Below, one piece after another: positions 8,355 through 32,871 of a DNA stretch of 64,000 bases. The DNA lies in IMG/VR virus record IMGVR_UViG_3300020185_000029, positions 1 through 64,000 of that record; one strand, written 5' to 3'. The translations under genes and the position numbers were made by a program. Under the pieces are notes generated by a model. The model was not told where the DNA came from. It did no database searches and saw nothing but the letters and a program-made list of their open reading frames with translations. This stretch comes from a virus. Numbering within the stretch: the stretch's first letter is position 1; each line of letters starts with the position of its first letter.

Positions 8355-8365
8355 AATAATATTGC

Positions 8366-8395: not shown

Positions 8396-8400
8396 ATCAA

Positions 8401-10751: not shown

Positions 10752-11594
10752 ATGGAAGATTTTACAGATAAGATAACGATTGGGATTCTTGACTTTTTTC
10801 AAGAGAAAGAGTCAAAGGAACTGCTAATGTCCTTAGCTGAAAATCTTTTGATAGATGTTAACATTCTTTTTATCGACAACGGAACTCCAAAAAGTTATAG
10901 TAAACAGTTCCTGAATGATGGACTAATTGATGAGTTAATTATAAACGATAGTAATCTTGGCTGTGGCCCAGCTACCGTTCAAATGTATGATTATTGCAAA
11001 ACTCCATATTTGATATACGTCCAAAGCGATCAAAGGCTAAATCAAAAGATTGACGCAGATTCAATGAATGGGATGATTAGAGCTTTGGACGAATACCACT
11101 GCATTGACTTGGCTGGAAATCAAGGGAATGGAAAATTCTCAGAAAGAGCTAATATGATGAAAACGGAATTCTATAAAAGAATTCCAAAACCTACTTTAGG
11201 TGGACCAGGAATCACAAATGATCAAAAGTATGTAGAGGAATGGGTTCAAGATTTTTTTGCAGACAATAATTGCGTTATAGCTCATGTTAGGCCAACAGTA
11301 TTTTCTGACGAAGGTTATTACTCAGTAAGAGAATTGTCACAAGAAGACCCTTGCATTTTAAAACATTCTTGCTGGACCAAGGAGATGTGGATTCTTACTG
11401 ACCCCCCGAAGAATAGGCATGAGGTTTATCCACCTCTTAACGAAGAGGAGTGGGATAGATTGATAAAAGGAGATTTTCCTAGGTGGAAAAACAACGAAAG
11501 GGGCTATGTACCAGAGGCTTGGAGAGACAACATTATTACCAATGAAATCGTGGAATCAAAAATTAGAGAAGACATAAAAAATGACACCGATTAA
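10752..11594 (+). CDS. GT-A (family 2-like) glycosyltransferase (280 aa)
   Basis: Residues 8-120 show a GT-A nucleotide-sugar fold: ITIGILDFFQEKESKELLMS, VNILFIDNGTPKSYSKQFLN (the IDNGS-type loop), SNLGCGPATVQMYDYCKTPY and YVQSDQRL, where SDQ takes the place of the DxD metal motif. Residue 140 onwards (NMMKTEFYKRIPKPTLGGPG) is an acceptor region without a known match. It opens a run of five glycosyltransferase-like genes and overlaps the next gene by 14 bases. Donor and acceptor are unknown. Confidence 0.7.
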   Translation: MEDFTDKITIGILDFFQEKESKELLMSLAENLLIDVNILFIDNGTPKSYSKQFLNDGLIDELIINDSNLGCGPATVQMYDYCKTPYLIYVQSDQRLNQKIDADSMNGMIRALDEYHCIDLAGNQGNGKFSERANMMKTEFYKRIPKPTLGGPGITNDQKYVEEWVQDFFADNNCVIAHVRPTVFSDEGYYSVRELSQEDPCILKHSCWTKEMWILTDPPKNRHEVYPPLNEEEWDRLIKGDFPRWKNNERGYVPEAWRDNIITNEIVESKIREDIKNDTD

Positions 11595-12450
11595 AAATAA
11601 AATTTGGCTATGCGGACTTACTTATGGCCCAGCTATTGAAGCCGTAAAAAATAACATTATCCCTATTGCTAAGCATTTCGATGGATTGAATATTGTTCTC
11701 CATAAGAGTGGACCAATCCTAACTGAACAGGAAAGCCAGTTATTTAGCATACTAAATGAAAATAGGGGACAAGGTAAAATTCATATTTTCGATTGGATTA
11801 GAAGATATGATTTTTCTAGGAATAGATATTTGTTTGACCCATTAATGAATTCTGGAGACTTCTTTGTAGTTTTAGACTCGTTGGAAAATATGACAGAAAA
11901 TTTCTGTACAACAGATCTTCCGAAGATTAGAAAATCAATGGTAGACAATGACCTTGAGGGAGTCTTTCTTCATGGCAAGGGTTTTATTTTTAGAAAAAAC
12001 GAATGGATGAAATATGAAAACGGAACTCATGAATGCATCAGACCCATGAATAGAGCTGCTGAGCTTACGCAGATTGCGGGCTATGAAGACAGTTCAAAAT
12101 ACTTCACAAACACTAGGCCAAACAAGAGAGAAAAACTTCATTTTGTAGAACACTTTTTTAGATATTATCTAATCGATAACACTATGCAGTGCTATTTAGG
12201 CACTGAGAAAGATGAAGGACTTACTAGAATTAGGTTAGAGAATAGACATGATTTTAGAAATCATCTGTTAAGCAAAGGAGTTGAATTCAATTACGAATCA
12301 GTCCTTGAGTTCTTTGAGCAGGACATAGATCAAGATACTAAAGATCTTATCAATAAAGAAAAAATTCTTAATGACTTCTATAGAAATAAAATACTAGGTG
12401 AAGTAGACATTTTAGATAATCACGATTACGAAAACATAAAGCCTATATGA
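11581..12450 (+). CDS. Putative GT-A-like glycosyltransferase (289 aa)
   Basis: Residues 8-100 look like a divergent GT-A domain: IWLCGLTYGPAIEAVKNNII, an RRYDFSRNRYLFDPL segment recalling the FSxxRN motif of family 2 enzymes, and FFVVLDSLENMTENF, where LDSLE stands in place of DADE. The rest is charged with several aromatic clusters. Only the local pattern supports the call, so it could be a related sugar-binding protein. It overlaps both neighbours (14 and 4 bases) and so is translated with them. Confidence 0.55.
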   Translation: MTPIKNKIWLCGLTYGPAIEAVKNNIIPIAKHFDGLNIVLHKSGPILTEQESQLFSILNENRGQGKIHIFDWIRRYDFSRNRYLFDPLMNSGDFFVVLDSLENMTENFCTTDLPKIRKSMVDNDLEGVFLHGKGFIFRKNEWMKYENGTHECIRPMNRAAELTQIAGYEDSSKYFTNTRPNKREKLHFVEHFFRYYLIDNTMQCYLGTEKDEGLTRIRLENRHDFRNHLLSKGVEFNYESVLEFFEQDIDQDTKDLINKEKILNDFYRNKILGEVDILDNHDYENIKPI

Positions 12451-13229
12451 TATCTCTAGCAACTAGTGCATTTAACATAGAGTCTAATGACTTTGACATT
12501 CATTCTGCAATTAAAAACTGGGAATTGTACGTAGATGAGATTGTTATAAGTACTATACCCTCTAGAGACAACTCTCTGCAAATCCTAAAGGAACTCGAAA
12601 GTTCTAAACCTATAAAGATAATTGAGGAAGATTTTTCACTGGAAGATCCTGAGTTTGATGGTAAGCTTAAAAATAGCTCGCATCAAAACTCTTCTAACGA
12701 AATTGTCGTTCAGTGTGATTTAGATGAAAGAATGGGCGGAAAGCCAGAAGCCTGGAAAAGCTTTGCAGAAACTCTTTTATCAAATGAGAGTGTAAAATCC
12801 TTGTTCATTCCAGTTATTGATCTTTATGGATCTTATTATGAATATTCCTCTATCAATAAAAAATGGTATATATGCAAGAAAGAGGGTACTAAGAGGGGAG
12901 TAGTCTCTTTTGCTAGAAAGCAAGATGGTAAAATTGATATAGAAAAATCAGATACTTGCGAACTTCTCGATGAAGATGATAATTTAGTTCCATATATTGA
13001 CATATGCCATCATTATCAAATAGATCCTCTAAGATATTGCCAGCTACATAATCCCTTCATTTGGCACTTAGGTTATATAGATATGGATAGAAGATCGAAA
13101 ATTAATTCTTGGTGGAAACCCCATTGGGAAAACCGTAAAGGAGAAAGTATTGAAGAGGTTGGAATATCTAAAAAAGATTTAGAATCAAGAGAAACTTTTA
13201 AACATAATATTGAAATAGATTTCTTATAA
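12447..13229 (+). CDS. Putative family 2-like glycosyltransferase (260 aa)
   Basis: The start overlaps the previous stop as ATGA. The N-terminus (ISLATSAFNIESNDFDIHSA, then VDEIVISTIPSRDNSLQILK) and the QCDLDERM motif at about residues 91-98 match a short GT-A enzyme with a DxDE-type metal site. The C-terminal half has conserved-looking His/Tyr/Trp residues (DICHHYQIDPLRYCQLHNPF, IWHLGYIDMDRRSKINSWWK), typical of the acceptor part of phage GT2-like proteins. Substrates unknown. Confidence 0.65.
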   Translation: MISLATSAFNIESNDFDIHSAIKNWELYVDEIVISTIPSRDNSLQILKELESSKPIKIIEEDFSLEDPEFDGKLKNSSHQNSSNEIVVQCDLDERMGGKPEAWKSFAETLLSNESVKSLFIPVIDLYGSYYEYSSINKKWYICKKEGTKRGVVSFARKQDGKIDIEKSDTCELLDEDDNLVPYIDICHHYQIDPLRYCQLHNPFIWHLGYIDMDRRSKINSWWKPHWENRKGESIEEVGISKKDLESRETFKHNIEIDFL

Positions 13230-13234
13230 GAATC

Positions 13235-13867
13235 ATGAATAAAAATAATAAAATAAAACAAATTCAAGAAGAGTATGATAAACTAGGGCTAAATTCTTGT
13301 TCCGTACCAGAAGAGGATGGCTGGATATTTGAATCTGCTATGAATATAACGGAATCAAATAATATTCTAGAAATTGGATTTTATAAGGGTGGTAGTGCAT
13401 TTATTATGCTTTCTTTAGATGAAGGTGTGAATTTAACTTCAGTTGACCCTATAGATGGATTGGCTTCCGAAGCATATCAAGCTGCTGAACAAAAGCAGTA
13501 TGATGAAAAACTCAAAGCAACAGAAAAAGTTAAAGAAAAGTTTGATGATCGATTTACTTTCATTAGAAAGTATTCTCAAGATGTCAGACCAGATTTAGAA
13601 GGGCAGTCTTTTGATATGATATTTATTGACGGTGATCATTGGGAAAGTGGCATAAGAAATGACTTTCAATTAATGCTAGATTTGAAAATTCCATATGCTC
13701 TAGTAGATGATTGGATACAGCCAAATAATTGCCACAAATCAGTTCCAACAGTATGGGCAGAAAGTTTTCAAGATAAATTGAAAATGAAAACAGTTTTTTT
13801 TAGACATGCTATTTCTTGCAATGGTGGTCCGATACCAGTTGTATTGCTGGAAAACTTGACCCTTTAG
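13235..13867 (+). CDS. Class I SAM-dependent methyltransferase (210 aa)
   Basis: Motif I NILEIGFYKGGSAFIMLSLD lies at about residues 43-62, the acidic strand-2 end follows at LTSVDPIDG, and a motif FDMIFIDGDHWESGIRNDFQ lies at about residues 126-145; this is the Methyltransf_24-type pattern with the IDGDH signature. Enzymes of this type methylate sugars or small molecules. It sits inside the glycosyltransferase run and probably methylates a glycan (inference). The start six bases after the previous stop has no strong ribosome site. Confidence 0.75.
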   Translation: MNKNNKIKQIQEEYDKLGLNSCSVPEEDGWIFESAMNITESNNILEIGFYKGGSAFIMLSLDEGVNLTSVDPIDGLASEAYQAAEQKQYDEKLKATEKVKEKFDDRFTFIRKYSQDVRPDLEGQSFDMIFIDGDHWESGIRNDFQLMLDLKIPYALVDDWIQPNNCHKSVPTVWAESFQDKLKMKTVFFRHAISCNGGPIPVVLLENLTL

Positions 13868-13872
13868 AAAGC

Positions 13873-14628
13873 ATGAAGAACTTACCCATATCATTAACGT
13901 TGTATACAACAACCAAAGGACATTTTGGCTACAAGGATTGTGCTAAAGATACAATTAATCATCTTTCTAAGATTGACGAAGGTTGTTTTTCTAACAAGTC
14001 TGCCCACATAAAGGTATGTGATAGCCAGGAAGGTGAAGACAAGTGCGAGGATTTAAAGTCTTTCTTTAAATCAAAAGGTTTTGATGTATTCACGACAAAG
14101 GGTAATTGGAACAGAAAAAACAATAATCATGCAATAGAGTATTTCAAAGACATGGAAACTCTAATGAATGAAAATGTTGTTCACGATAATGAATTTATCC
14201 TATTCCACGAAGATGACTGGTTAATAAACACTGAAAAGCCTTTGATATATCTTTTGCAGGAGGGCATAAAATTGATGAAAGCAAATAAGGATATTCTTTG
14301 TGTAAGAGTTAATGCAGATATAAATACAGATGTTTCAAAAGCCACAAAAATCACAAATGAAATATACTTACAAAATTTTGATTATACTGAATATGGGCCA
14401 ACAATAACATTTCAGCCTACTCTAATGAGAACTAGAGATTGGTATGCAGCAGTAAGACAAATAAACCGAAATGATTTGAGATTCAAATCCCATTGCGAAT
14501 TACTTAGCGGCATGTTTATGAAGGGGCTTTTTGCAACAGTGAGTACGCCATTTGCTTTCTTTGATCCTAATACGATTAATGCTACCCACATTGGCTCAGA
14601 AGAGTTTGCAAAGGAGAATACTAAATGA
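13873..14628 (+). CDS. Glycosyltransferase-like protein with HEDDW motif (251 aa)
   Basis: Start taken at ATG 13873 (MKNLPISLTLYTTTKGHFGY), five bases after the methyltransferase stop; an earlier in-frame ATG at 13816 would lie deep inside that gene. The N-terminal GT-A-like part has SLTLYTTTKGHFGYKDCAKD and the motif FILFHEDDWLINTEKPLIYL at about residues 112-131, where EDD is the likely metal-binding site. The C-terminal part has TITFQPTLMRTRDWYAAVRQ. The layout resembles small phage and LPS-type glycosyltransferases. Donor and acceptor unknown. Confidence 0.6.
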   Translation: MKNLPISLTLYTTTKGHFGYKDCAKDTINHLSKIDEGCFSNKSAHIKVCDSQEGEDKCEDLKSFFKSKGFDVFTTKGNWNRKNNNHAIEYFKDMETLMNENVVHDNEFILFHEDDWLINTEKPLIYLLQEGIKLMKANKDILCVRVNADINTDVSKATKITNEIYLQNFDYTEYGPTITFQPTLMRTRDWYAAVRQINRNDLRFKSHCELLSGMFMKGLFATVSTPFAFFDPNTINATHIGSEEFAKENTK

Positions 14629-14678
14629 TTTACTTTGATGAAGGCAGATCAGATTATATTTTAGATTGGTGGCTATGA
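14625..14678 (+). CDS. Possible 17-aa peptide linking two glycosyltransferase genes
   Basis: ATG at 14625 overlaps the previous stop as ATGA, and its own TGA (14676-14678) overlaps the ATG of the next gene in the same way. The peptide is MIYFDEGRSDYILDWWL. It may simply carry ribosomes from one gene to the next. At this length it could be chance. Confidence 0.25.
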   Translation: MIYFDEGRSDYILDWWL

Positions 14679-15430
14679 AAATAGGTTTTATGCTTTGTGC
14701 TTTCAATCAAGAAGAGTTTCTTGATGGCTGCTTACAGGACCTTGTTCCTTTTTGTAAGGAGTATGGTCATATTATTAGTGCTGTTTCAGTACCTTTTCTC
14801 GAATATAAAGATAAAGGTATAAAGTACGATGGCACTACTAGTATTTTAAAAGGTAAGTTAAAAAATGGTGATATTGATTATTTGATTAGTGATCCCAAAT
14901 ACATAACAGATGCTGAAGCGAGAAACTTCGCCCTGAAGCCTCTTCTCGAAAATGATTGCGACTTAATATTCTTGATTGATTCTGATGAAAAATTCAGCAA
15001 ATTGGATTTAGAAAACATTATTAATTATGTAGAGAATTCTGAATTTATTGATTGGTGGGCTATAAGCTACAAAAATTACGTTGGTAATGGTTACTTGATA
15101 GAGCCTTTTACTCCACCAAGAATATTCAAAGTAAACGCAAGGGGTTTAAAAGCCTCTCATTTTTATTTTGATAACGACTTACTTTACATCTCTAAAGATG
15201 GAAGTGAGTTGAATTACAAATCCCTGTCCAATAAAGTTATTCCACAGTCCATCGCATGGGTTCCACATTTTACTTGGACTAATACAGAAAGAAATAAGCT
15301 CAAAATAGAATATCAAAACATTCATAATCATGGCTGCTCATACAAATGGGAAGATGGAGAGGTTAAGTTGAATGATGATTTTTATCATCGAAACAATCTT
15401 ATCAAACCAAATATAATCTATGAAGATTAG
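14675..15430 (+). CDS. Family 2-like glycosyltransferase (251 aa)
   Basis: Start at ATG 14675 (MKIGFMLCAFNQEEFLDGCL), within an ATGA overlap. It carries the GT2-type ARN motif (ITDAEARNFALKPLLENDCD, about residues 84-103) followed by a DxD site in IFLIDSDEKF, and the acceptor region WWAISYKNYVGNGYLIEPFT then PRIFKVNARGLKASHFYF. It closely follows the layout of the other island enzymes. Its last nine codons lie inside the first copy of a 174-bp direct repeat. Substrates unknown. Confidence 0.75.
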   Translation: MKIGFMLCAFNQEEFLDGCLQDLVPFCKEYGHIISAVSVPFLEYKDKGIKYDGTTSILKGKLKNGDIDYLISDPKYITDAEARNFALKPLLENDCDLIFLIDSDEKFSKLDLENIINYVENSEFIDWWAISYKNYVGNGYLIEPFTPPRIFKVNARGLKASHFYFDNDLLYISKDGSELNYKSLSNKVIPQSIAWVPHFTWTNTERNKLKIEYQNIHNHGCSYKWEDGEVKLNDDFYHRNNLIKPNIIYED

Positions 15431-15577
15431 ATATTTAAAATTTAAGTTAAAATTGTATTTGACAACTCCAATATTTTCATCATACATAAGGGCTGCAACA
15501 ATTGCAGCAGTTGGATAAAATATCCAAAATAAAAAACACCACCAAATAAAAATGAAAGAAAAAAAAGAAATGCAAGT
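15404..15577 (+). repeat. Direct repeat, copy 1 (174 bp)
   Basis: Bases 15404-15577 match 16276-16449 with four mismatches and no gap (offset 872). The unit covers the last nine codons of a glycosyltransferase, a promoter-like TTGACA, two hairpins (GCTGCAA/TTGCAGC at 15492-15508; TTGGATA/TATCCAA at 15511-15527) and the first nine codons of the downstream gene (MKEKKEMQV). Confidence 0.9.
15459..15486 (+). promoter_or_regulatory. Putative promoter within repeat copy 1
   Basis: TTGACA (15459-15464) is followed after 16-18 bases by a -10-like CATACA or TACATA (15481-15488). Two hairpins and an A-rich, ribosome-site-free leader separate it from ATG 15552. The duplicated copy has TTGACA at 16331-16336. 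Confidence 0.45.
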
Positions 15578-16271
15578 TAACGTTGATGGAGAAGTTATGG
15601 ATGAATTAAAAAAAAATAGAGAGAGCTTATTAAAAAGTATGCATAGTAGTTTTTTTGGTTGTTTTACGCAACAAAGGCATGAAGCTTTTGCGGCAATTAA
15701 TGATCTTTTAAATTATTATAATTTTACAAATATTATTGAAATCGGAACCCATGACTGTGGATTATCTATACCTCTTGCTCTTTATTGCTTGAATTCAAAA
15801 ATTCCAGTTGAAGCAGAAAATCCCTCAGAGCCATCTACCCATAAAGCCAGAACTCATCATAAACAACCAAAACAATTTTACACTATGGATATAACTGTAA
15901 GAGATATTCATTCTATAAAATTAATTATTGGGATGGGAGCAAAGTTTTTTAAAGAAGATTGCTTTTTAAAAGAAGCTGAAATTGGAAATTTAATCCAACA
16001 AAATGGACGAAGTCTGTTATTATGTGACGGAGGGGACAAACCAAAGGAAGTAAATACTTTTGCCAAATATCTTAAAAAGGGCGACATTATCATGGGTCAC
16101 GATTATTTTCATAGTGAAGAGGAGGAAGAAAAATATCTTAATAAAATTTGGTATGGCAAGGAATTATGTTATAAAGATGTAGAAAAAACTTTGGAGAAAG
16201 AAAATATTTCTGTAATTTACAGAGAAACTTTTGATCCAGTAGTTTGGATGTGCGCTATAAAAAACGAATAA
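15552..16271 (+). CDS. Methyltransferase-like protein with CmcI-type motifs (239 aa)
   Basis: Residues 60-75 carry the SAM-binding motif I (TNIIEIGTHDCGLSIPLALY), and SLLLCDGGDKPKEVNTFAKY then KKGDIIMGHDYFHSEEEEEK (about residues 154-198) follows the pattern of CmcI/cephalosporin hydroxylase-like class I methyltransferases. A probable sugar or small-molecule methyltransferase. It is flanked by the 174-bp direct repeats, so it appears to be an inserted cassette; its first nine residues (MKEKKEMQV) are shared with the next small gene. A composition rich in Lys/Glu matches neighbouring genes, so no sign of foreign origin is visible. Confidence 0.65.
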   Translation: MKEKKEMQVNVDGEVMDELKKNRESLLKSMHSSFFGCFTQQRHEAFAAINDLLNYYNFTNIIEIGTHDCGLSIPLALYCLNSKIPVEAENPSEPSTHKARTHHKQPKQFYTMDITVRDIHSIKLIIGMGAKFFKEDCFLKEAEIGNLIQQNGRSLLLCDGGDKPKEVNTFAKYLKKGDIIMGHDYFHSEEEEEKYLNKIWYGKELCYKDVEKTLEKENISVIYRETFDPVVWMCAIKNE

Positions 16272-16275
16272 AATA

Positions 16276-16449
16276 AAACCAAATATAATCTATGAAGATT
16301 AGATATTTAAAATTTAAGTTAAAATTATCTTTGACAACTCCAATATTTTCATCATACATAAGGGCTGCAACAATTGCAGCAGTTGGATAAAATATCCAAA
16401 ATAAAAAACAACACCAAATAAAAATGAAAGAAAAGAAAGAAATGCAAGT
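16276..16449 (+). repeat. Direct repeat, copy 2 (174 bp)
   Basis: Copy of 15404-15577 (four mismatches). It begins with a non-coding relic of the glycosyltransferase 3' end, shows TTGACA at 16331-16336 and both hairpins, and ends in the start of the 57-aa gene. Confidence 0.9.
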
Positions 16450-16597
16450 AGAGGTCGATGGGAAATTTGAGACCAGGGAAGTGGACTTTATTGTCCATAG
16501 AGATGGTTCCCCTTTTAGATATCCAAAGATTAATGACTTCGAACATATTTACGAAAATGAAAAAAGAATATTTGTTTTTACTAGTACGGTAAAGTAG
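16424..16597 (+). CDS. Small hypothetical protein sharing its first nine residues with the upstream methyltransferase (57 aa)
   Basis: ATG at 16424 to TAG at 16595-16597. It begins MKEKKEMQVEVDGKFETREV, has a beta-rich middle (VDFIVHRDGSPFRYPKIND) and ends IFVFTSTVK. The leader and first codons lie in copy 2 of the direct repeat. It may be the ancestral gene in front of which the methyltransferase cassette was placed, or a remnant. Function unknown. Confidence 0.5.
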   Translation: MKEKKEMQVEVDGKFETREVDFIVHRDGSPFRYPKINDFEHIYENEKRIFVFTSTVK

Positions 16598-16677
16598 ATT
16601 CCGTTACACAATTTAGAGCTATAATTTTATTTCTTTTAAACTTCTTGCAAAAGTTTTTTGAAAGATGTAATTACCTA

Positions 16678-16690
16678 TTGCCCTAACATA
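16678..16690 (+). promoter_or_regulatory. TTGCCCTAACATA element upstream of nrdB
   Basis: This 13-mer is identical to 28981-28993 upstream of the SSB gene, where it ends in the putative -10 box (TAACAT) of a TTGACA promoter. Here the best upstream -35 candidates (TTGAAA 16658-16663) are badly spaced. A 17-base A-rich leader without ribosome site leads to ATG 16708. The rest of the 16598-16707 gap is AT-rich with no other clear signal. Confidence 0.45.
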
Positions 16691-16707
16691 CAAAACAAAA
16701 AAAACAA

Positions 16708-17676: not shown

Positions 17677-17681
17677 AATTA

Positions 17682-19328: not shown

Positions 19329-19647
19329 TATACTAAATAAGGAGGAGATGGATCTACTCAAGGAAGATTCCCTACCTTCCATAAATCGGTGTCTCGATGT
19401 TATAATTAAATCGCGAGACATCGTTATGGATACGCATAAGTGGAGCGTAGATCGCAGAACGGACGATAGAGTTCTGGATTTATACTCCGCTCTATGTATT
19501 TCCTACAAAGGTATGGTTAAATATAAGAATAAGTTTGCTAGAAGTCAAAAACTTGAATCCATGATAAACAATAAGGAGGATTTTACATCCTCTTACTTAG
19601 TATGCACAAGAATTATAGAAAGAATGCTAAAAGAATACAAAGAATAG
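19318..19647 (+). CDS. Hypothetical helical protein (109 aa, or 99 aa from an internal ATG)
   Basis: Reads from GTG 19318, overlapping the nrdA stop, or from ATG 19348 (MDLLKEDSLPSINRCLDVII). An AGGAGG at 19340-19345 is only two bases from that ATG, too close for normal use, so the start is uncertain. The protein is charged, helical, with no domain recognised (ends RTDDRVLDLYSALCISYKGM then RIIERMLKEYKE). Its position suggests a role linked to nucleotide metabolism, but nothing in the sequence shows it. Confidence 0.6.
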   Translation: MKDDILNKEEMDLLKEDSLPSINRCLDVIIKSRDIVMDTHKWSVDRRTDDRVLDLYSALCISYKGMVKYKNKFARSQKLESMINNKEDFTSSYLVCTRIIERMLKEYKE

Positions 19648-19683
19648 TTGCTCAATTGCTCTAATCTCAATATCATCTTCCGT

Positions 19684-20712
19684 ATGAAGAAAGTAATTAT
19701 TACTGGTGTTACGGGGCAAGTTGGATCTTATATGGTAGATTTTCTGTTGAAAAATACAGACTACAAGATTTTTGGAGCAATCAGAAGATTGAGCGTACCA
19801 AATCATCGGAATATTAGCCATATCGACAACCCGCGCTTTGAATTGATCGAAATGGATCTGACGGATGAACCAAGCATCTCATCATGTATCCATGAAATTA
19901 ACCCAGATTATTTTATTAATTTTGCTGCGAACTCTTTCGTAGGAAATAGCTGGAAAATGCCAATAAATCATTTTGATGTTAATGCCGTAGGTGTTATGCG
20001 TCAACTTGAGGCGATAAGAAAGTTTTGCCCTAACTGTAGATATTATAATGCTGGATCTTCGGAAGAATTTGGCGATGTTGCGTATAGCCCACAAGACCTC
20101 AAGCATCCATCCAGACCAAGAAGTCCGTATGGTGCGGCTAAAGTTGCAGCTAGACAAATAGTAAAGGTATGGAGAGACTCATACGACCTGTATGCGGTTC
20201 AGGGCTATTTGTTTAATCATGAGTCGGAGCGCCGTGGCGAAGAGTTCGTAACAAGAAAGATTACTAAGGCTGTAGCTAGAATCAAGAAGTCTATTGAAAG
20301 TGAAGAAGATTTTAAGCCGCTAGAGCTTGGGAACATGAACGCCAAGAGAGACTGGAGTCATGCAGAGGATTTCGTTGAAGCAGTTTGGCTAATGATGAAT
20401 CAGGAAAATCCCAAAGACTATCTTCTTGCTTCTGGCGAAACTCACACAGTAAGAGAGTTTGTTGATTTGGCATTTAAAAATGCTGATATTAATAACAGCT
20501 ATTTTGAATGGGTTGGCTCAGAAGAGAGCGAAATTTTATATTGTAATGGTAAAGCTGTTGTTAGGGTTAATCCTGAGTTTTATCGGCCAGCAGAGGTTGA
20601 CTTATTGCTAGGTGATCCATCAGAAGCTGTAAATGAATTGGGTTGGATCAAGAGAGTAGATTTTGAGACTTTAGTCAAAAGAATGGTTAATAATGATTTA
20701 ATCATTGACTAA
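19684..20712 (+). CDS. gmd: GDP-mannose 4,6-dehydratase-like SDR enzyme (342 aa)
   Basis: Start at ATG 19684 (MKKVIITGVTGQVGSYMVDF). NAD(P)-binding GxxGxxG lies at residues 8-14. The catalytic region reads YYNAGSSEEFGD, then SPYGAAK (Tyr/Lys about residues 150/154), and the family signature LFNHESERRGEEFVTRKIT follows. This matches GDP-mannose dehydratase, which makes GDP-4-keto-6-deoxymannose, a precursor of GDP-fucose, GDP-rhamnose or GDP-perosamine. No second-step enzyme is seen in the window; the host may supply it. It would feed the glycosyltransferases of the island. Confidence 0.85.
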   Translation: MKKVIITGVTGQVGSYMVDFLLKNTDYKIFGAIRRLSVPNHRNISHIDNPRFELIEMDLTDEPSISSCIHEINPDYFINFAANSFVGNSWKMPINHFDVNAVGVMRQLEAIRKFCPNCRYYNAGSSEEFGDVAYSPQDLKHPSRPRSPYGAAKVAARQIVKVWRDSYDLYAVQGYLFNHESERRGEEFVTRKITKAVARIKKSIESEEDFKPLELGNMNAKRDWSHAEDFVEAVWLMMNQENPKDYLLASGETHTVREFVDLAFKNADINNSYFEWVGSEESEILYCNGKAVVRVNPEFYRPAEVDLLLGDPSEAVNELGWIKRVDFETLVKRMVNNDLIID

Positions 20713-20740
20713 TACTCTACTATTAGCATAGTCATAATTT

Positions 20741-22862: not shown

Positions 22863-22863
22863 T

Positions 22864-24144: not shown

Positions 24145-24163
24145 AACATATTGATCAACTTTG

Positions 24164-24200
24164 CTCCCGATTACTGACTTTCAGTTTTCGGGAGTTTTTG
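24164..24200 (+). terminator. Rho-independent terminator with nested hairpins
   Basis: A 7-bp stem CTCCCGA/TCGGGAG (24164-24170 with 24188-24194) encloses a second stem ACTGA/TCAGT, followed by TTTTTGTTT. It ends the recombination transcript right before the helicase promoter. Confidence 0.9.
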
Positions 24201-24201
24201 T

Positions 24202-24237
24202 TTGACATGCTAAAGAAATTGCCCATATTCAACTCCA
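24202..24237 (+). promoter_or_regulatory. Sigma-70-type promoter of the helicase gene, near-leaderless
   Basis: TTGACA (24202-24207), 16 bases, CATATT (24224-24229), then eight bases to ATG 24238. The spacer ends in TTGCCC (24219-24224), also found before the SSB and nrdB elements. Confidence 0.65.
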
Positions 24238-26729: not shown

Positions 26730-27777
26730 GCCAACAAAACATGTACTAAGTGCCTCCAAGATTGAAACATATCAGAAGTGCAGTTTAGTTTATTATGCAA
26801 AGTATTTGAACAAGACTCCAGATAAAGAAAATTATGGAGCTTTAAGAGGCACGATATGTCATGACATTTTCGAAATGCTTATCGAAGAAAAACATAAGGA
26901 CAGAGTTGACCAAATTCTAGAAGAGGGGTCTATCCTAAAAGATAAGAAGCTTATTGATTTAATCAATTCTATGATGTCTGGCTTCAACATGGAGGAGCTA
27001 GATGATAAGGGTCAGAATAATTTTGAGATGATTTGCGAAATGATTTTCGTAGGTTTGAATTATGACTTTTACTGCAAAGGCTATAAGGTTGACTATGAAA
27101 ACCTAGAAACCATGTTTTACTTAAAGGGTACTGAAGATCAGCCTTATGAGTTGAGAGGCAAGATTGATAAGCCTTCTAGCCGTGGCAAAAAATATAGAAT
27201 TGTTGATTATAAATCTTCTGCTCAGAAAAAACAAGATGTAGAGTTGGAGTTCAGTGTTCAGGCTCTGTCCTATATTCTCTGGGCTAAGAAAGCTAAGGAT
27301 ATGACTGCCTTTGTTGAGTTTGTTTTTCTTAGATTTCCAGATAAGCCAGACCAAAGAGTAGAAGTCACCGATGAAGTTTTAGAAGGGTTTGAATCTTGGC
27401 TCTCTGATCTTTACGTATACCTAAGAAACTTTGACGAGCTAAACATGTATGACAATATGGCAGCAGACAAAGGCTATCCAAAGGATGGTACATTCTCTGG
27501 TTCTATTGTATGCGGTTATGGAAAATATCCTGGACACTCCTATTCAGACACTCATAAGAATGTAGAAAAGAGAGGCAAGCCATATTACGTATGTTCTGAA
27601 AAATGGCCATACGATTACTGGATACTTAAAGATGAAGATGGCAATATTATAAAAAGTACAAGGGATGAAGAAGATTTTAAAGATAAGGATCAAAGCCTTG
27701 TAGAAAAGAAATCATGGCAAGGATGTCCAAAATTCACAAATTCCGTTGATTTCTTGGAATGGAAAGGCTCTAAATGA
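26722..27777 (+). CDS. RecB/Cas4-like PD-(D/E)XK nuclease (351 aa)
   Basis: Motifs in order: SASKIETYQKCSLVYYAKYL at the N-terminus, GTICHDIFE (H about residue 47), YELRGKIDKP (D about residue 148), RIVDYKSSA (D-x-K about residues 162-164) and QALSYILWAKK. This is the nuclease domain of the PDDEXK_1 superfamily found in RecB, AddB and Cas4. Cysteines for an iron-sulfur cluster are not clear. It follows the primase with an 8-base overlap and is likely an exonuclease in recombination or replication. A Cas4-like role in CRISPR is not supported, since no array is present. Confidence 0.75.
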   Translation: MDKPTKHVLSASKIETYQKCSLVYYAKYLNKTPDKENYGALRGTICHDIFEMLIEEKHKDRVDQILEEGSILKDKKLIDLINSMMSGFNMEELDDKGQNNFEMICEMIFVGLNYDFYCKGYKVDYENLETMFYLKGTEDQPYELRGKIDKPSSRGKKYRIVDYKSSAQKKQDVELEFSVQALSYILWAKKAKDMTAFVEFVFLRFPDKPDQRVEVTDEVLEGFESWLSDLYVYLRNFDELNMYDNMAADKGYPKDGTFSGSIVCGYGKYPGHSYSDTHKNVEKRGKPYYVCSEKWPYDYWILKDEDGNIIKSTRDEEDFKDKDQSLVEKKSWQGCPKFTNSVDFLEWKGSK

Positions 27778-28571
27778 TTTTAGTTATTGGAGAATTTATA
27801 AAGGACGAGTTCATTTACTGTTCTTCCGACAGGCTTTCTCCAGAAGCTTGCTGCCCAGTAATAAAAGAAATTTTCAGAGAAAAGAATGATGGAGGAGCTG
27901 CTAATGTAGTAAGCAACTTAAAGTCATTGGGATGTGATAAAATTTTATTCGTCCATCAAGACAACGAAATCATTAAAACCAGATACGTGCATAAAAGTTC
28001 TGGGCAACATATTGCAAGATTAGACAAAGAAAGTCCCTGTAAACCCCTTAGTCTTGAGAGCTTGATTCAATCAACATCTTCGAGCAAATGCAGTGACCCT
28101 ATAGATATGATTGTAATTTCAGACTACTGCAAGGGATTTATTACTGAAAGTCTTATACATGATATTCGTAAAAAATTCTCATGCAAAATTATTATAGATA
28201 CAAAAAAGAAAGCTGGAAACTGGATCAAGTATGTAGATTTTATAAAAATTAATAAAAAAGAATTTGATGAAAACTTTCTTCCTTATGACCCTGGGAAACA
28301 AGTTAGCACCCTGCTCAAGAAAACTAACTTATTTGTCACGTTGGGCGAGAAGGGGGTTTATCACTTCAATACTGACTCTACCATTAAAACAAAAGAAGTC
28401 GAAGCTAACTGCGTGTCTGGAGCTGGTGACAGCTATTTAGCTGGCTTTGTAGCAGAATACTTGCGCTCTGCCAATATTAATAAAAGCCTTTCATTCGCAA
28501 ATCAAGTCGCATCAATAGCTGTATCAAAGAGAGGAGTTGTTTCTGTTTCAGAAACAGAGCTTAATGACTAA
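27774..28571 (+). CDS. PfkB-family kinase resembling the HldE N-terminal domain (265 aa)
   Basis: The start overlaps the nuclease stop as ATGA. Residues 1-55 follow the HldE kinase layout, with DRLSPEACCPVIKEIFREKN replacing the usual SPEAPVPV segment and DGGAANVVSNLKSLG as the substrate-binding stretch. The catalytic motif GAGDSYLAGFVAEYLRSA with the base Asp lies at about residues 216-233. HldE kinase phosphorylates D-glycero-D-manno-heptose 7-phosphate in ADP-heptose synthesis; a related sugar is possible. It is shorter than usual by about 45 residues. The next gene is the matching nucleotidyltransferase half. Confidence 0.75.
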   Translation: MILVIGEFIKDEFIYCSSDRLSPEACCPVIKEIFREKNDGGAANVVSNLKSLGCDKILFVHQDNEIIKTRYVHKSSGQHIARLDKESPCKPLSLESLIQSTSSSKCSDPIDMIVISDYCKGFITESLIHDIRKKFSCKIIIDTKKKAGNWIKYVDFIKINKKEFDENFLPYDPGKQVSTLLKKTNLFVTLGEKGVYHFNTDSTIKTKEVEANCVSGAGDSYLAGFVAEYLRSANINKSLSFANQVASIAVSKRGVVSVSETELND

Positions 28572-28968
28572 TAACCCCATCGAAGGTTTTATAGCTGGAT
28601 GCTTTGATGGATTCCATGAAGGTCATCAATATATTTTAAAGACAGCTATGGAGCAATGCGATATTCTCCATGTTGCTCTTAACTCAGATAGGTATATTAT
28701 AAAAAACAAAAGACTTTTGCTCTCTTGCATTGATGAAAGAAAAAAGAAGATTAGAAATTTTGGAGTAAATGAAATTCATTCGTTCATAGAAGACAGCCCC
28801 ATAGACCTGATTAATAAAATTAAACCCAAAATAATATTTGTTGGCGATGACTATCCACTAGAAAAAATAGTTGGTCACAAAGAGTGTAAATACTGGGGAG
28901 GAGAGGTAAGAATCATAAAACGAATTCCAGGATTTTCTAGCACAAATATAAGACAAAAAAATACTTGA
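28564..28968 (+). CDS. HldE C-terminal-like nucleotidyltransferase (134 aa)
   Basis: Start at ATG 28564 (MTNNPIEGFIAGCFDGFHEG). The HxGH nucleotide-binding motif (FHEGH, residues 16-20) and the second motif SSTNIRQK near the C-terminus define the cytidylyltransferase-like fold of RfaE domain 2. A segment INKIKPKIIFVGDDYPLEKI matches the conserved VGDDY region. In bacteria this half transfers AMP to heptose 1-phosphate, here in a separate polypeptide overlapping the kinase by eight bases. It would supply an activated sugar for the glycosyltransferases nearby. Confidence 0.75.
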   Translation: MTNNPIEGFIAGCFDGFHEGHQYILKTAMEQCDILHVALNSDRYIIKNKRLLLSCIDERKKKIRNFGVNEIHSFIEDSPIDLINKIKPKIIFVGDDYPLEKIVGHKECKYWGGEVRIIKRIPGFSSTNIRQKNT

Positions 28969-28992
28969 CATTATATAACTTTGCCCTAACAT
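28965..28992 (+). promoter_or_regulatory. Sigma-70-type promoter of the SSB gene
   Basis: TTGACA (28965-28970), 16 bases, TAACAT (28987-28992), followed by an A-rich leader of about 45 bases without a ribosome site. The -10 region is part of GCCCTA-ACA-TAGGGC (28983-28997), a perfect 6-bp inverted repeat that may be an operator. Confidence 0.6.
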
Positions 28993-29045
28993 AGGGCATC
29001 TAAACAACAAACAATAAATAATAATACAAAAAATAATACAAAATT

Positions 29046-29690
29046 ATGGCACTAAACAAACAAACTAAATCATCTACCTACTTGACAGTAGTCGGTGGGA
29101 AGATTTCACAACGTGTCCCAGAAGGCACAGAGGGGGCAGTATCTCGCACCCTTAAAAATGGACCTAACGAAGGCTCTGAAGTATATGAGCTTCAGTACGG
29201 TAGCGTTACTGGTAAGATCTCTGGAGGCTCTGTCGAAAGCGGAGACTATGGTGATCAAATCTCTATTAATCTTGAAGATGGGAAAGAATCGTATATCGTC
29301 AAGCTTCCTTGGAATTCCAAACTCCGAGATGCTTTCGTAAAACGAATTCCAAATATTGAAGTCTCTCAGGAAATAGAATTAGTATGCTTTCCAGATAAGC
29401 AAGATAAGAGTCCTGTAATGCTAATCAAACAAAATGGAGGTTTTGTGAAGTTTGCATATACGAAAGATAATCCAAATGGCCTTCCCGCTCCGAAAAAAAA
29501 GGTTGTTCGTGGCAAGGAAGAGTGGGATTGGTCCGAACCAGAGACTTTCCTGTGGGACGTAGCCTCTTCATTCTTTGAGCAGTTCGAAGGGAATAGTAAA
29601 CCAGCTTTTCAAGAGGAAGAGAAGGAAGCTCCAGATCAATTCGTTGAATCAAGCAATCCGCTTAGTTCCGACGACGATCTGCCGTTTTAA
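29046..29690 (+). CDS. Single-stranded DNA-binding protein-like (214 aa)
   Basis: Recognised mainly by its acidic C-terminal tail ending SSDDDLPF, the typical SSB tip that recruits replication proteins, after a long acidic linker (EEEKEAPDQFVESSNPLSSD). The N-terminal 130 residues are beta-rich as in an OB fold (SSTYLTVVGGKISQRVPEGT, then QISINLEDGKESYIVKLPWN). It would protect ssDNA near the fork. It has its own promoter and is closed by a strong terminator, as expected for an abundant protein. Confidence 0.7.
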   Translation: MALNKQTKSSTYLTVVGGKISQRVPEGTEGAVSRTLKNGPNEGSEVYELQYGSVTGKISGGSVESGDYGDQISINLEDGKESYIVKLPWNSKLRDAFVKRIPNIEVSQEIELVCFPDKQDKSPVMLIKQNGGFVKFAYTKDNPNGLPAPKKKVVRGKEEWDWSEPETFLWDVASSFFEQFEGNSKPAFQEEEKEAPDQFVESSNPLSSDDDLPF

Positions 29691-29719
29691 TAAGGTCAAG
29701 GTGGGTTAATATAAAAACT

Positions 29720-29750
29720 AGCCAGCTATCGAAAGATGGCTGGCTTTTTT
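29720..29750 (+). terminator. Rho-independent terminator with GAAA loop
   Basis: An 11-bp stem AGCCAGCTATC/GATGGCTGGCT (29720-29730 with 29735-29745, one G-T pair) with loop GAAA is followed by a T-run ending at 29750. It ends the SSB transcript. Confidence 0.95.
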
Positions 29751-29751
29751 A

Positions 29752-29785
29752 TTGTTAAATTAAAGTTTAAATCTATAATTTGAAA
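29752..29785 (+). promoter_or_regulatory. Sigma-70-type promoter, near-leaderless
   Basis: TTGTTA (29752-29757), 16 bases, TATAAT (29774-29779, perfect), then six bases to ATG 29786. It follows directly on the SSB terminator. Confidence 0.7.
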
Positions 29786-31705
29786 ATGAAGAAAAAGAAA
29801 ATCATATTCCTCACCAACGCTCTTTTTATTAAAACTGGTTTGTCTCGAAACTTGAAAGCTATTCTAAAGGAGATTTATCCTTTAGACAAGTACGAGATAG
29901 TACATTACTGCTCTGGAGTTAGCGAGAATGATCATAACTTAGATAAGTATCCCTGGAAAACTCTTGGTTCTATTCCCAGTAATCCAGCAGATATTCAAAA
30001 AATACAGTCTGACCCACATCTTTCTCGCATGGCTACATATGGAGGATATAGAGTCGAGCAGATAGTTAAGGATGAAAAGCCTGATATTTTATGGTGTTCT
30101 GATGATATTTGGGCTTTTCCCCCAGATAAGTTTTGCGATACTAAGTGGGCAAAACATCTTAATCTAATTAGTCACGTTACTATAGATTCGGTTCCAATCT
30201 TGCCCGAAGCTATACAGCAAGCAAAGAACTCTAACTTTTATTCTTGGGCAAGCTTTGGTGAAAAAGAAATTAAAAAGGTTTTTGATAAAGAGAATTTTTC
30301 CTCTAGATATAATCTAGGTACTGTTAATGGAGCTGTAGATGGAGAGTGCTACAAGCCAATTTCTAAGTTACAAAAGTCAGAGTTAAGAAAGAAATTTGGG
30401 ATCGAAAAAGACTGTACTTTATTCTTTTACCTTGGACGTAATCAACTTAGAAAAAAATATGACTCTATCCTAAGGGCTTTTAAAAGTCATAAGCTACAGA
30501 ATCCAAAAAGCAAATCCAAGCTACTATTCCATTGTAGCTGGACAGAAGGCTGGCCGCTAACTCGTATCATCGAGTCTCTGGAAATTGATCCAGAAGACAT
30601 TTTAACCACTTATGTTTGCAATAAATGTAAGGAGTTTAAAATTAATAGGTACGTTGGAGAGCAGAAAGACTGCGAATTTTGCGGGAATAAGAAATGCGTA
30701 GACTCTTCTTCTGTTGGGAATGGGGTCACGGATGAGGACATGTGTAAGATTTATGGAGTGGCAGATGCGTGTATTTCAGTTTTTACTAGCGGTGGGTTTG
30801 AATTTTGTAACGCAGAGTCTATGATGTGTGGGCTTCCGCTTGCTACTGTTTCTTATTCTTGCGGGTCAGAGTATACTGCCTGTGATTCAGTTTTCGAAAT
30901 AAGACATATTGAAAGTGGAGAGTGTCAAACTGGCTTCGTAAAAGCAGAGCCAAACATTAATGATATTATTAAATTTATTAAAAAGATCGAAACAATCTCA
31001 GAAAAGGATAAGGATGAAATAAAAATCAAATCCATCAAATGGGCTAAGGAAAGATATGATAGCAAAGTTATTGCCGCTAAATGGATGGAAATCTTCGACT
31101 CTTTACCTGAAGTAGATTATACTGACTTTTCTTTTGACGACGAAGATAGGTCAAATCCAAGCTTTGAACCAAATTTTAATTTAACTGGAGAGAACTTCAT
31201 ACGCAGTCTCTACTTAGGGTATCTTGGAGCAGAGTATCCAGATGAGGCTGGAATGAGGCATTGGATGCAAAGGGTTGAGCAGGGAGAGGACTATAGTAGT
31301 ATCGCTTCCCTATTTCGTAATATTTCTCAGCAAAATGTTGAAAAACAAGAAGATTCCAAGAATCGTGACATAGAAGATATCTTGCCTAAAAATGGCAAAA
31401 AGAACGTGCTGTTCGTAATCAAGGAGAGCTTGGGTGATACCATTATCTCACTTAGCCTTTTAGAGGGTGTTAGAAAACAATATCCAGAGCATAACATTAT
31501 TGTTTGCACTGACCCAAAATACTTTGAAGTGTTTGTTGGCTGCGACTTTGTCGATAAAATGATACCATTTTATCCACAATTAGAGCAAGAGCTTTTTGTA
31601 ATTGGAGCAGGTAGCGAAAAGAATATAGCTGATGTATTCATCATGCCAACAGTATCAACTCAAAAGCACTTAAACTACCTTTCAAACAACAACCCAGAAC
31701 TATAA
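29786..31705 (+). CDS. GT4 glycosyltransferase with zinc ribbon, DUF4214 and GT9 N-terminal domain (639 aa)
   Basis: Start taken at ATG 29786 (MKKKKIIFLTNALFIKTGLS), since the promoter ends six bases upstream. Residues 1-430 are a GT-B enzyme with donor region TLFFYLGRNQLRKKYDSILR and TSGGFEFCNAESMMCGLPLA. At about residues 278-307 a CNKCKEF ... CEFCGNKKC zinc-ribbon pair is inserted. Residues about 455-510 carry a DUF4214-like repeat (ENFIRSLYLGYLGAEYPDEA). From about residue 535 (NVLFVIKESLGDTIISLSLL) a GT9 heptosyltransferase first half begins and breaks at a TAATG overlap with the next gene. Confidence 0.7.
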   Translation: MKKKKIIFLTNALFIKTGLSRNLKAILKEIYPLDKYEIVHYCSGVSENDHNLDKYPWKTLGSIPSNPADIQKIQSDPHLSRMATYGGYRVEQIVKDEKPDILWCSDDIWAFPPDKFCDTKWAKHLNLISHVTIDSVPILPEAIQQAKNSNFYSWASFGEKEIKKVFDKENFSSRYNLGTVNGAVDGECYKPISKLQKSELRKKFGIEKDCTLFFYLGRNQLRKKYDSILRAFKSHKLQNPKSKSKLLFHCSWTEGWPLTRIIESLEIDPEDILTTYVCNKCKEFKINRYVGEQKDCEFCGNKKCVDSSSVGNGVTDEDMCKIYGVADACISVFTSGGFEFCNAESMMCGLPLATVSYSCGSEYTACDSVFEIRHIESGECQTGFVKAEPNINDIIKFIKKIETISEKDKDEIKIKSIKWAKERYDSKVIAAKWMEIFDSLPEVDYTDFSFDDEDRSNPSFEPNFNLTGENFIRSLYLGYLGAEYPDEAGMRHWMQRVEQGEDYSSIASLFRNISQQNVEKQEDSKNRDIEDILPKNGKKNVLFVIKESLGDTIISLSLLEGVRKQYPEHNIIVCTDPKYFEVFVGCDFVDKMIPFYPQLEQELFVIGAGSEKNIADVFIMPTVSTQKHLNYLSNNNPEL

Positions 31706-32871
31706 TGCCCTCATTGTTAAAAACCTACTCTTTAAATTCTGGCTTTAAAATCAGAAAATGCAAGCCGCTAGAATTCTTCTATCCAACACCTAAAAAGTAT
31801 ATTACTATACAGACCTCATCTGGGATGAGTAGTAAGAATTATGATTACTGGATTGATGTATTAAAATACATTAAAAAGGATCTGCATGATGCTGGATATG
31901 AAATATTGCACATAGGAACAGAGGGGTTAAATATCCCTTTCGTGAAATCTCTTATTGGCAAAACTAGCTTGCATCAAACCAATTACATACTAAGAAACAG
32001 CAGCCTTCATTTGGGCAATGATTCCTTTGCTGTACATTTGTCTGGACTTCACGAAACTCCCGTAGTCTCCGTATATGGCCCAACTACTCCAGAGAATCAT
32101 GGACCTTATTTTAAATCTGAAAATACGCATTTAATCTCTTCACATAGAAATGGGAACAACCCCTCGTTCGCTTCTAATGAGCCTGATAAGACGATTAACA
32201 TGATAAAGGTAGAGGACATTGTAAATAAAGTCTACGAAGCTCTTAGAATTAAAAAGAGTAGTGACGAAGAAACTATCTTTACTGGTAAATTTTATCCGCA
32301 ACAAATAATAGAAATTGTCCCAAATTTAGACGTAGACGCAAACATTCTTAATAATGTTGAGCCAACAATTAGATGCGACTATGAATGTAATGATAACGTT
32401 TTATTTAGTTTATTAAAAAAGGTCAAATGCTCTGTCATTACTTCCAAAGAAAGCGAAATAAGGCTGTACAAAATTTGTAGAGACAATATCTCAAATATTA
32501 ATTTCAAAGTATCGCTTGATGCTAATAAAGATTACGTCAAAAGTCTTTTGAATATCGGTATAGATTGTAAGTTATGGTCAGATGATGCAGAAAATATAGA
32601 CAAAATAAGATTCATGTTTTTAGACATAGGCCAGGTCCACCTAAAGAAGATTGATTCAGTTAATATAGATGGTCTTAATTCTGACTGCTTTTACATTTCG
32701 AATAAATTCATTTTAAGTAACGGCAAGGTCTTTACATCTAAACAAGCGATGATTGCCGATGAAAGCATTAAATCTCTAGAAGATAATTGTATTAAATTCA
32801 AAGAGATGGATGAAGATTTCATGGAAGAGGTCCAATTTTTTAGAATCATCAAAAAAAACTTGACAAAATAA
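31705..32871 (+). CDS. GT9 (heptosyltransferase) C-terminal half plus unknown domain (388 aa)
   Basis: The start overlaps the previous stop as TAATG. The first 180 residues complete the GT9 fold begun in the preceding gene: YITIQTSSGMSSKNYDYWID, ILHIGTEGLNIPFVKSLIGK, and the donor-binding motif LGNDSFAVHLSGLHETPVVS then YGPTTPENHGPY. The last 190 residues are an unrecognised alpha/beta domain (YECNDNVLFSLLKKVKCSVI). The two GT9 halves in consecutive frames could be a natural two-chain enzyme or a split gene. A role in adding heptose-like sugars is suggested by HldE-like genes upstream. Confidence 0.65.
   Translation: MPSLLKTYSLNSGFKIRKCKPLEFFYPTPKKYITIQTSSGMSSKNYDYWIDVLKYIKKDLHDAGYEILHIGTEGLNIPFVKSLIGKTSLHQTNYILRNSSLHLGNDSFAVHLSGLHETPVVSVYGPTTPENHGPYFKSENTHLISSHRNGNNPSFASNEPDKTINMIKVEDIVNKVYEALRIKKSSDEETIFTGKFYPQQIIEIVPNLDVDANILNNVEPTIRCDYECNDNVLFSLLKKVKCSVITSKESEIRLYKICRDNISNINFKVSLDANKDYVKSLLNIGIDCKLWSDDAENIDKIRFMFLDIGQVHLKKIDSVNIDGLNSDCFYISNKFILSNGKVFTSKQAMIADESIKSLEDNCIKFKEMDEDFMEEVQFFRIIKKNLTK

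Follow-up and report, generated by a model that had tools for sequence, protein, structure and literature searches.

Marine phages have repeatedly been found to carry sugar genes filed under the name of lipopolysaccharide (LPS) genes. The closest described set, T4-GC 304/305/307/308 of the cyanophages P-SSM2, S-SM2 and S-SSM7, consists of the same kinase, nucleotidyltransferase, cupin and epimerase as those treated here; the parts of the 2010 comparison drawn upon name no heptose and leave open what these genes do, and whether they work at all or are only filler (Sullivan et al. 2010, PMC3037559). In jumbo cyanophages, polysaccharide modification clusters bring together epimerases, cupin sugar isomerases, PfkB kinases, HIGH nucleotidyltransferases and glycosyltransferases (Iyer et al. 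2021, PMC7824862); the word heptose is absent from that paper, and the portions cited here do not give the cupin the role of GmhA. As far as the excerpts of both papers go, the announcement of SynMITS9220M01 lists heptose genes (PMC7378029) and a paper on pelagimyophages names rfaE (PMC7029224). The present analysis concerns the sugar genes of a tailed phage, IMG/VR record IMGVR_UViG_3300020185_000029, of which a stretch of 64,000 bases (hereafter the window) was analysed, together with an overlapping relative that extends it upstream.

The canonical heptose pathway begins with the SIS-domain isomerase GmhA. The kinase, nucleotidyltransferase and epimerase of the phage best match the families of the canonical ADP-heptose pathway, whereas no match to the GmhA isomerase (PF13580/TIGR00441) was found in the four records of this phage and its near relatives (E ≤ 1); instead, a cupin and a HAD protein of the NT5C type accompany the cassette. 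As for GmhB, no canonical one was seen among the ORFs (open reading frames) of this phage, no dedicated search having been made. On balance, we think it probable that the phage carries an ADP-heptose cassette, with the cupin as likely first enzyme, which feeds a heptosyltransferase made of two chains, the virion being the favoured acceptor. With respect to the T4-GC set of P-SSM2 and S-SM2 (28–60% identity, S-SSM7 being left out), whose carriers are T4-like phages, the set is here split over two places and its HAD belongs to the NT5C family.

Results

Heptose-type genes of the phage

The virus record from which the window is taken has 78,182 bases, and the phage has a tape-measure protein of 1922 residues. 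Its terminase is only distantly related to those of other phages, with 22 matches among 50,697 phage records, none of which covers more than 80% of the query and all of which lie below 60% identity, while three near relatives were found among the viral contigs (G001, G002 and G003). G002 has the same sequence as the window in 1322 of 1322 bp compared at the window start and in 20,790 of 20,795 bp inside it, and reaches 37.7 kb further upstream; combined with the phage's own record, it implies a genome larger than about 115 kb. Read alone, the window omits half of the sugar pathway: on G002, about 8–10 kb upstream of the window start, lie an NT5C-family HAD gene, a gene for a cupin of 119 residues and the HldD-like epimerase gene, flanked by DNA polymerase genes (named by eye) and by a large subtilase-domain protein. 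The kinase and nucleotidyltransferase genes are located about 37 kb from this group, not adjacent to it. The subtilase-domain protein (L025:11224-14985, minus strand) has 1253 residues and matches PF00082; in phage L032, too, a subtilase-like protein (16119-17714) lies close to the cassette.

The three enzymes were named after their best models (Table 1), with the suffix "-like" since they score below the curated equivalog cut-offs. For the kinase, TIGR02198 gives 147.9 bits (cut-off 345) and its profile has as best PDB match the D-beta-D-heptose 7-phosphate kinase 4e84 (E = 2.5e-28, the next match being at 6e-12); a GAGD motif, which we take to be the active-site motif of HldA-type kinases, is invariant in an alignment of five phage kinases. 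The nucleotidyltransferase reaches 89.8 bits with TIGR02199 (HldC / HldE domain II; cut-off 181.5). An HldE-like kinase and nucleotidyltransferase had been proposed in the initial annotation: the heptose-type assignment of both stands by best family, but they are two separate genes and below the curated cut-offs. As for the epimerase, TIGR02197 is the best model at 149.2 bits (cut-off 274.6), and its homologue in phage L128 is above this cut-off (337.2); Y109 and K113, presumably the Tyr-x-x-x-Lys motif of short-chain dehydrogenases, are invariant in an alignment of six phage proteins. Between the window and G003, the ratio of non-synonymous to synonymous substitution rates (dN/dS) is 0–0.25 for eleven sugar-gene ORFs (two of these values rest on at most six changes), which argues that these ORFs are not due to chance.

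A putative two-chain glycosyltransferase

The span from 10,752 to 32,871 had been credited with at least six glycosyltransferases, a count that had to be lowered: seven ORFs can be counted, of which two are supported, two are marginal and three are without a glycosyltransferase (GT) family. The two supported ORFs, 29780 and 31705, are neighbours. ORF 31705 matches the GT9 model PF01075 with 41.7 bits, above the gathering score of 22, and the WaaF structure 1psw at 3.5e-4; against the LPS heptosyltransferase II model TIGR02195 it obtains 33.4 bits on what is half a protein, under the cut-off of 134.6. The C-terminal end of ORF 29780 and the start of ORF 31705 have their matches, in the same order, in two successive ORFs of phage L128 (2757-3134 and 3136-3690; 31% and 32% identity). 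The part of the C-lobe described by PF01075 is matched by ORF 31705 and by the second L128 ORF, and the first L128 ORF, without any Pfam match, was called the N-lobe because of its position and on visual inspection. At the junction of ORFs 29780 and 31705, stop and start overlap (TAATG), identically so in G003. The frames of the two ORFs stand in a different relation in L128 than in the window, and we therefore read this arrangement as a true split gene, not as a frameshift error. On sequence grounds, the C-terminus of ORF 29780 and ORF 31705 can be read as the two chains of a single GT9 heptosyltransferase.

The TibC/BAHT protein heptosyltransferases, as presented in the part of the literature used here (PMC4358343), would be alike if the phage heptose goes onto Ser/Thr residues of an adhesin; they differ in that the phage GT9 is in two chains, and TibC is not among the PDB matches of the C-lobe ORF at E ≤ 1. 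TibC is also described in that source as having an iron finger. A CxxC...CxxC stretch, reminiscent of a metal-finger insertion, was seen by eye in the GT4 domain of 29780-31705 (plus strand).

Concerning the other candidates, ORFs 12447, 10752 and 14666 had no phage match by tblastn at E ≤ 1, and the AlphaFold model of ORF 12447 has a predicted local distance difference test (pLDDT) value of 36.7. An iterated GT2 profile seeded from L128 drew no recruits beyond its seed and is hence uninformative on the GT-A fold, and a GT4 seed profile drew, among the window proteins, only its own. ORF 13816 matched none of 148 Bacteroidota genomes in a search run without a positive control. The protein at 8607, outside the span, is identical to its G003 counterpart over 370 of 370 residues, with 11 synonymous changes.

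Proposed pathway

From these genes we infer a route of which each catalytic step, the nucleotide and the acceptor are given as proposals. The cupin would act as a ketol-isomerase converting sedoheptulose-7-phosphate into manno-heptose-7-phosphate (the task of GmhA), after which the PfkB kinase (27774) would add the 1-phosphate, the HAD phosphatase would strip the 7-phosphate (the task of GmhB) and the nucleotidyltransferase (28537) would yield ADP-heptose. The HldD-like epimerase would then set the C6 configuration, and the two-chain GT9, with the GT4 domain, would transfer the sugar. In a second branch, the GDP-mannose dehydratase (19648) would supply a 6-deoxy-hexose precursor. The acceptor would most likely be the phage's own tail or fibre proteins and, less likely, a host surface glycan.

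Recurrence of the cassette

The same four families occur in the cyanophages P-SSM2, S-CAM1, P-TIM68 and S-SM2, to whose cupins that of this phage is 59–66% identical. Identities to the cyanophage or L032 proteins reach at most 66% for the cupin, 38% for the kinase, 35% for HldD and 34% for the nucleotidyltransferase. In this phage, homologues of all four genes of the T4-GC 304/305/307/308 type are present, on two overlapping, near-identical records.

The environmental distribution was surveyed in IMG/VR with a profile of six phage HldD proteins, neighbours being recorded within 8 kb. Among the best 80 of at least 568 loci, a kinase was found in 65, a nucleotidyltransferase in 59, a cupin in 61, a small HAD-like protein in 33, a true GmhB in 8 and a GT9 in 13, while 0 of 15 terminase control loci (relatives of this phage, only 4–12 kb long) had any cassette neighbour. 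A second survey took the best 80 of at least 583 cupin relatives, of which 79 were new and were counted; one of these 79 is this phage, and at least four contigs are shared with the HldD set. HldD was present in 72 of these 79 loci and any of HldD, kinase or nucleotidyltransferase in 75 (59 of the 61 loci of at least 10 kb). Over 133 loci, the gap between cupin and HldD, measured between stop-to-stop open frames, has a median of 4 bases and is within 1500 bases in 118. These statements on synteny are limited by the many survey loci that end at contig ends.

In the 133 loci with cupin and HldD, the small HAD and the true GmhB were never found together: 97 have the small HAD only, 8 GmhB only and 28 neither (P = 1.5e-5, a guide only, since the count includes some contigs twice and treats related loci as independent). 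Both are held by the marine virus fragment L041, which is outside the 133. The cyanophage proteins of about 110 residues called "phosphoheptose isomerase" resemble HAD phosphatases by eye, their DxDGT start being, we assume, the HAD phosphatase motif; the P-SSM2 copy has no Pfam match.

A phage-type heptose cassette is present on a contig titled Bifidobacterium breve MAG (L203), an organism label that looks doubtful. SynMITS9220M01 has two cassettes (L042:196-3011 and 6809-9888): the first comprises a GHMP kinase (Pfam), a cupin and a sugar nucleotidyltransferase, and the second an annotated D,D-heptose 7-phosphate kinase, a SIS isomerase and a HAD-nucleotidyltransferase.

Virion or host surface as acceptor

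Glycosylation of the virion is favoured over remodelling of the host surface because fibre or fibre-like genes lie near the cassette in P-SSM2, S-CAM1 and L032. In S-CAM1 the annotated tail-fibre gene adjoins the epimerase gene, in P-SSM2 one gene stands between them, and in L032 fibre-like genes (by eye) are within a few genes of the cassette, one ORF matching the S-CAM1 fibre at 4e-8. As for S-SM2 and P-TIM68, the cassette is inside larger sugar clusters.

In the phage itself, the Thr-Gly-rich giant protein given as an example by the initial annotation is real (84 TG dipeptides vs. 23 expected) and, from its place in the tail gene block, would be located in the virion; it is a candidate acceptor. 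Further candidates are the leucine-rich repeat (LRR) proteins at 3288-6149 (3288 by Pfam, 4317 by eye). On the minus strand at 3288-6854, a BspA-type LRR protein (3288, PF13306) is accompanied by ORFs 4317 and 6162, which share by eye its N-terminus and repeats and are fibre-like. The best G003 matches of these LRR ORFs are 58–72% identical, vs. 97–100% for the neighbours at 6882-8607, G003 ending inside the locus; such low identity beside near-identical neighbours points to a variable adhesin locus. The ORF at 34686-37013 (minus strand) has Cys-rich repeats of the CPxGxxCxxxxC type with GPD/DPD runs (by eye) and evolves fast, with a dN/dS of 0.67.

The strongest competitor is the remodelling of the host surface, in which the sugars would be added to the LPS or capsule of the infected cell and block competing phages; it is a real contender, though somewhat the less probable one. 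GT9 enzymes typically build the LPS core, and the transferase of this phage is a GT9 (PF01075, 1psw). Furthermore, surface modification is the published reading of the "LPS genes" of P-SSM2 and of the pelagimyophages, in the parts of these papers relied on here (PMC2984593, PMC7029224, PMC7824862). Nevertheless, cyanophages carry the cassette even though, according to the portion of the source cited, heptose is absent from cyanobacterial LPS (PMC4390846), so that a canonical role in the LPS core is unlikely in cyanobacteria, and the fibre or fibre-like genes near the cassette of three phages also speak for the virion. The absence of heptose is not decisive, since a change of the host surface would need no pre-existing heptose.

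The cupin as a possible substitute for GmhA

In the phage cassette, the cupin may take the step of GmhA. The GmhA family PF13580 matched none of 93 distinct viral records (sets of 44 and 50), vs. 9 of 14 control genomes. The sister phage L043 has, in one run, the kinase, the nucleotidyltransferase, the HAD and a cupin::HldD fusion, such a fusion being seen at no other locus scanned. A cellular counterpart is provided by the Parcubacteria locus L213, with the order GT9, cupin, HldA, one opposite-strand ORF, HldC+GmhB and HldD. There, HldA (349 vs. 345 bits), GmhB (196 vs. 178) and HldD (308 vs. 275) are above the curated cut-offs and HldC is under its own (157 vs. 181.5), and no gmhA match was found in the genome, a 0.7-Mb bin of unstated completeness. 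In this operon, which is firmly of the heptose type, the cupin thus occupies the place where gmhA would be expected.

The structural model of the cupin (pLDDT 95, 51 sequences) has D-lyxose isomerase at the first two ranks of a Foldseek search (E = 2e-9), with phosphomannose isomerases also high. D-lyxose and phosphomannose isomerases turn a ketose into a manno-aldose, which is also the type of reaction proposed for the cupin. Residues H42, H44, E49 and H90, presumably the usual metal ligands of cupins, are invariant in the 51 sequences. The "cysteine dioxygenase" genes of cyanophages (L038:9803-10159, L040:9767-10120 and L039:10110-10541) are the cassette cupin, and this label is probably wrong.

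Alternatively, the cupin would be a tailoring enzyme (an epimerase or an oxygenase) that modifies the completed heptose or some other sugar, with heptose-7-phosphate supplied by the GmhA of the host, a scenario that appears possible but on the whole doubtful. A number of observations, several of which favour this alternative, weigh against the cassette as proposed. Cupins are functionally diverse and their fold is generic: sequence and profile searches put quercetinases and oxalate decarboxylases first, CapF (a capsule-sugar enzyme), oxalate decarboxylase and others are within a factor of about 10 of D-lyxose isomerase in Foldseek, and in VIA-align, Pac13 (Z = 15.4) and CapF (15.2) equal or slightly exceed the isomerases (14.8 to 13.7). 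Of 16 cupin loci labelled as cellular, 6 have no heptose gene nearby, and the same holds for 4 of the 79 viral ones. A Cytophagaceae genome with the cupin cassette has its own GmhA over the cut-off, and sub-cut-off gmhA matches were found in two more of the eight cellular genomes. SynMITS9220M01 carries both a SIS protein and a cupin, each beside its own kinase, and PF13580 detects this SIS protein only at E = 0.0017, below the cut-off; because of this weakness of the model on phage SIS proteins, the absence of GmhA from phages is less firm than the counts. None of the three cassette enzymes of this phage that were compared with NCBIfam equivalogs reaches the cut-off. As for the acceptor, virion or adhesin genes, scored with cyanophage-derived models and two families picked by eye, are near 18 of 80 HldD and 31 of 79 cupin loci, but also near 3 of 14 control loci (annotated structural-gene models alone: 13 HldD, 27 cupin and 3 control loci); since control loci also score, the survey does not by itself prove the virion link. 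Finally, the dN/dS values cover the in-window genes, G003 not reaching HldD, cupin and HAD.

The tailoring scenario is, for its part, opposed by the Parcubacteria genome, whose HldA, GmhB and HldD are over the cut-offs without a gmhA match, and by the D-lyxose isomerases at the top of the Foldseek search; in addition, supply by the host would be unlikely in cyanobacteria if no heptose is made there. A one-sequence model of the SynMITS9220M01 SIS protein had no match in the 80 HldD and 79 cupin loci. The SIS-like ORF L132:14594-15220, picked by eye, has no Pfam match and was set aside. An isomerase role of the cupin at the head of the heptose pathway is the one proposed here.

Layout of the window and weaker explanations

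The synthesis and transfer of activated sugars announced by the initial annotation are supported, with an ADP-heptose-type branch and a GDP-4-keto-6-deoxymannose branch, though not as one contiguous glycan kit at 10752-32871: two sugar blocks (10752-16271 and 27774-32871) flank replication genes. A single kit of 22 kb is ruled out by eight replication or nucleotide genes inside the span, some of them weak matches, namely NrdB, NrdA, UvsX-like, homing-endonuclease-like, phosphoesterase-like (below cut-off), DnaB, primase and PD-(D/E)XK. The GDP-mannose dehydratase gene, rightly recognised from the outset (PF16363, 351.3 bits vs. a gathering cut-off of 27; equivalog TIGR01472, 340 bits, under its cut-off of 415), sits inside this replication block. 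Its homologues are 50% identical over 348 residues in the sister record G004 and 62% identical in L147, and those of the dehydratase, recombinase, nuclease, helicase and primase are found together and in the same order in the related contigs L147 and L127. The sulfotransferase at 2453 was likewise confirmed. One of the two methyltransferases claimed (13235-13867) belongs to such a family, whereas ORF 15552 matches none. The former has no match in G003, although that contig keeps both neighbours.

That the sugar genes would be cargo ("stuffer") genes taken from hosts and unused by the phage, an idea raised for cyanophage LPS genes in the part of the source cited (PMC3037559), is very improbable: the same set recurs in dissimilar phages, and the sugar ORFs are kept at the low dN/dS given above while tail proteins change, with 0.78 for the Thr-Gly protein, 0.67 for ORF 34686 and 0.52 for the tape measure. 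Hypermodification of the DNA by glycosylation, already doubted in the initial annotation, is the least credible of all: sugar genes do stand in an operon-like run with replication genes, kept in L147 and L127 and partly in L043, but the supported transferases are GT4/GT9 and the thymidylate-synthase/dCMP-hydroxymethylase family PF00303 has no match in the four records of the phage and its near relatives, all possibly incomplete (controls: 9 of 14 genomes).

Table 1. Position and best evidence of the sugar-related and candidate acceptor genes (window coordinates, except for the epimerase)
Feature	Position	Strand	Evidence
Heptose-7-phosphate kinase-like (HldA-like, PfkB)	27774..28571	+	TIGR02198 3.5e-43, best NCBIfam model
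Heptose-1-phosphate adenylyltransferase-like (HldC-like)	28537..28968	+	TIGR02199 1.5e-25, best NCBIfam model
HldD-like epimerase	L025:8669-9445 (on G002)	-	TIGR02197 1.5e-43; top PDB matches HldD 3sxp, 1eq2
GT4-like domain, then segment matching GT9 N-lobe	29780..31705	+	PF00534 26.5 bits vs. cut-off 26.4
GT9 heptosyltransferase C-lobe as own ORF, C-terminal extension	31705..32871	+	PF01075 1.1e-10
GDP-mannose 4,6-dehydratase	19648..20712	+	PF16363 8.3e-105
Thr/Ser/Gly-rich giant protein, tail gene block, candidate acceptor	37372..42609	-	T 10.0%, S 10.5%, G 13.3%
Sulfotransferase	2453..3253	-	PF13469 1.8e-16; G003 contig ends before this place
Class I methyltransferase (Methyltransf_24)	13235..13867	+	PF13578 1.2e-14
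Unclassified (earlier called methyltransferase)	15552..16271	+	no methyltransferase family; no G003 match; present in L036
Possible GT-A glycosyltransferase	10752..11594	+	PF00535 12.7 bits, E 0.13, below cut-off 23.3; dN/dS 0.10
Possible GT-A glycosyltransferase	14666..15430	+	PF00535 14.1 bits, E 0.047, below cut-off
Unclassified, glycosyltransferase by eye only	11581..12450	+	no family at E 10; dN/dS 0.17
Unclassified, glycosyltransferase by eye only (DxD-like stretch)	12447..13229	+	no family at E 10
Unclassified, glycosyltransferase by eye only	13816..14628	+	no family at E 10; dN/dS 0.09
Unknown family (earlier called glycosyltransferase), outside span	8607..9719	-	no GT family at E 10

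Other features of the phage

Shine-Dalgarno-like sites are nearly absent from the window (5 of 47 genes vs. 3.3 expected), a scarcity that we assume would fit a Bacteroidota-type host; they precede 0 of 16 genes in L043 and 15 of 19 in phage L032. The window NrdB protein is closest to those of phages of alphaproteobacteria (58%). Far upstream in the phage, two alike genes of 267 residues (L024:1971-2774 and 4003-4806, minus strand) look by eye like a duplication.

Conclusions

In the open-access literature searched, no paper was found that describes an ADP-heptose cassette in a phage or gives a cupin the role of GmhA. Within these limits, the pathway reading, the role of the cupin and the split GT9 appear to be new, parts of the set being already known from cyanophages. 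A wider proposal, which we put forward as unlikely, is that marine phages and some Parcubacteria use an unrecognised cupin isomerase, not homologous to GmhA, in its stead, that ADP-heptose would be made in hosts lacking heptose, and that the two-chain GT9 would decorate the phage's own Thr/Ser-rich tail adhesins.

Reading the marine phage "LPS genes" as an ADP-heptose cassette makes the question of whether they are functional or filler testable in isolated cyanophages. If true, the cyanophage genes called "cysteine dioxygenase" would be misnamed, and the cupin, as another way of carrying out the GmhA step, would close a gap in the heptose metabolism of genomes without gmhA.

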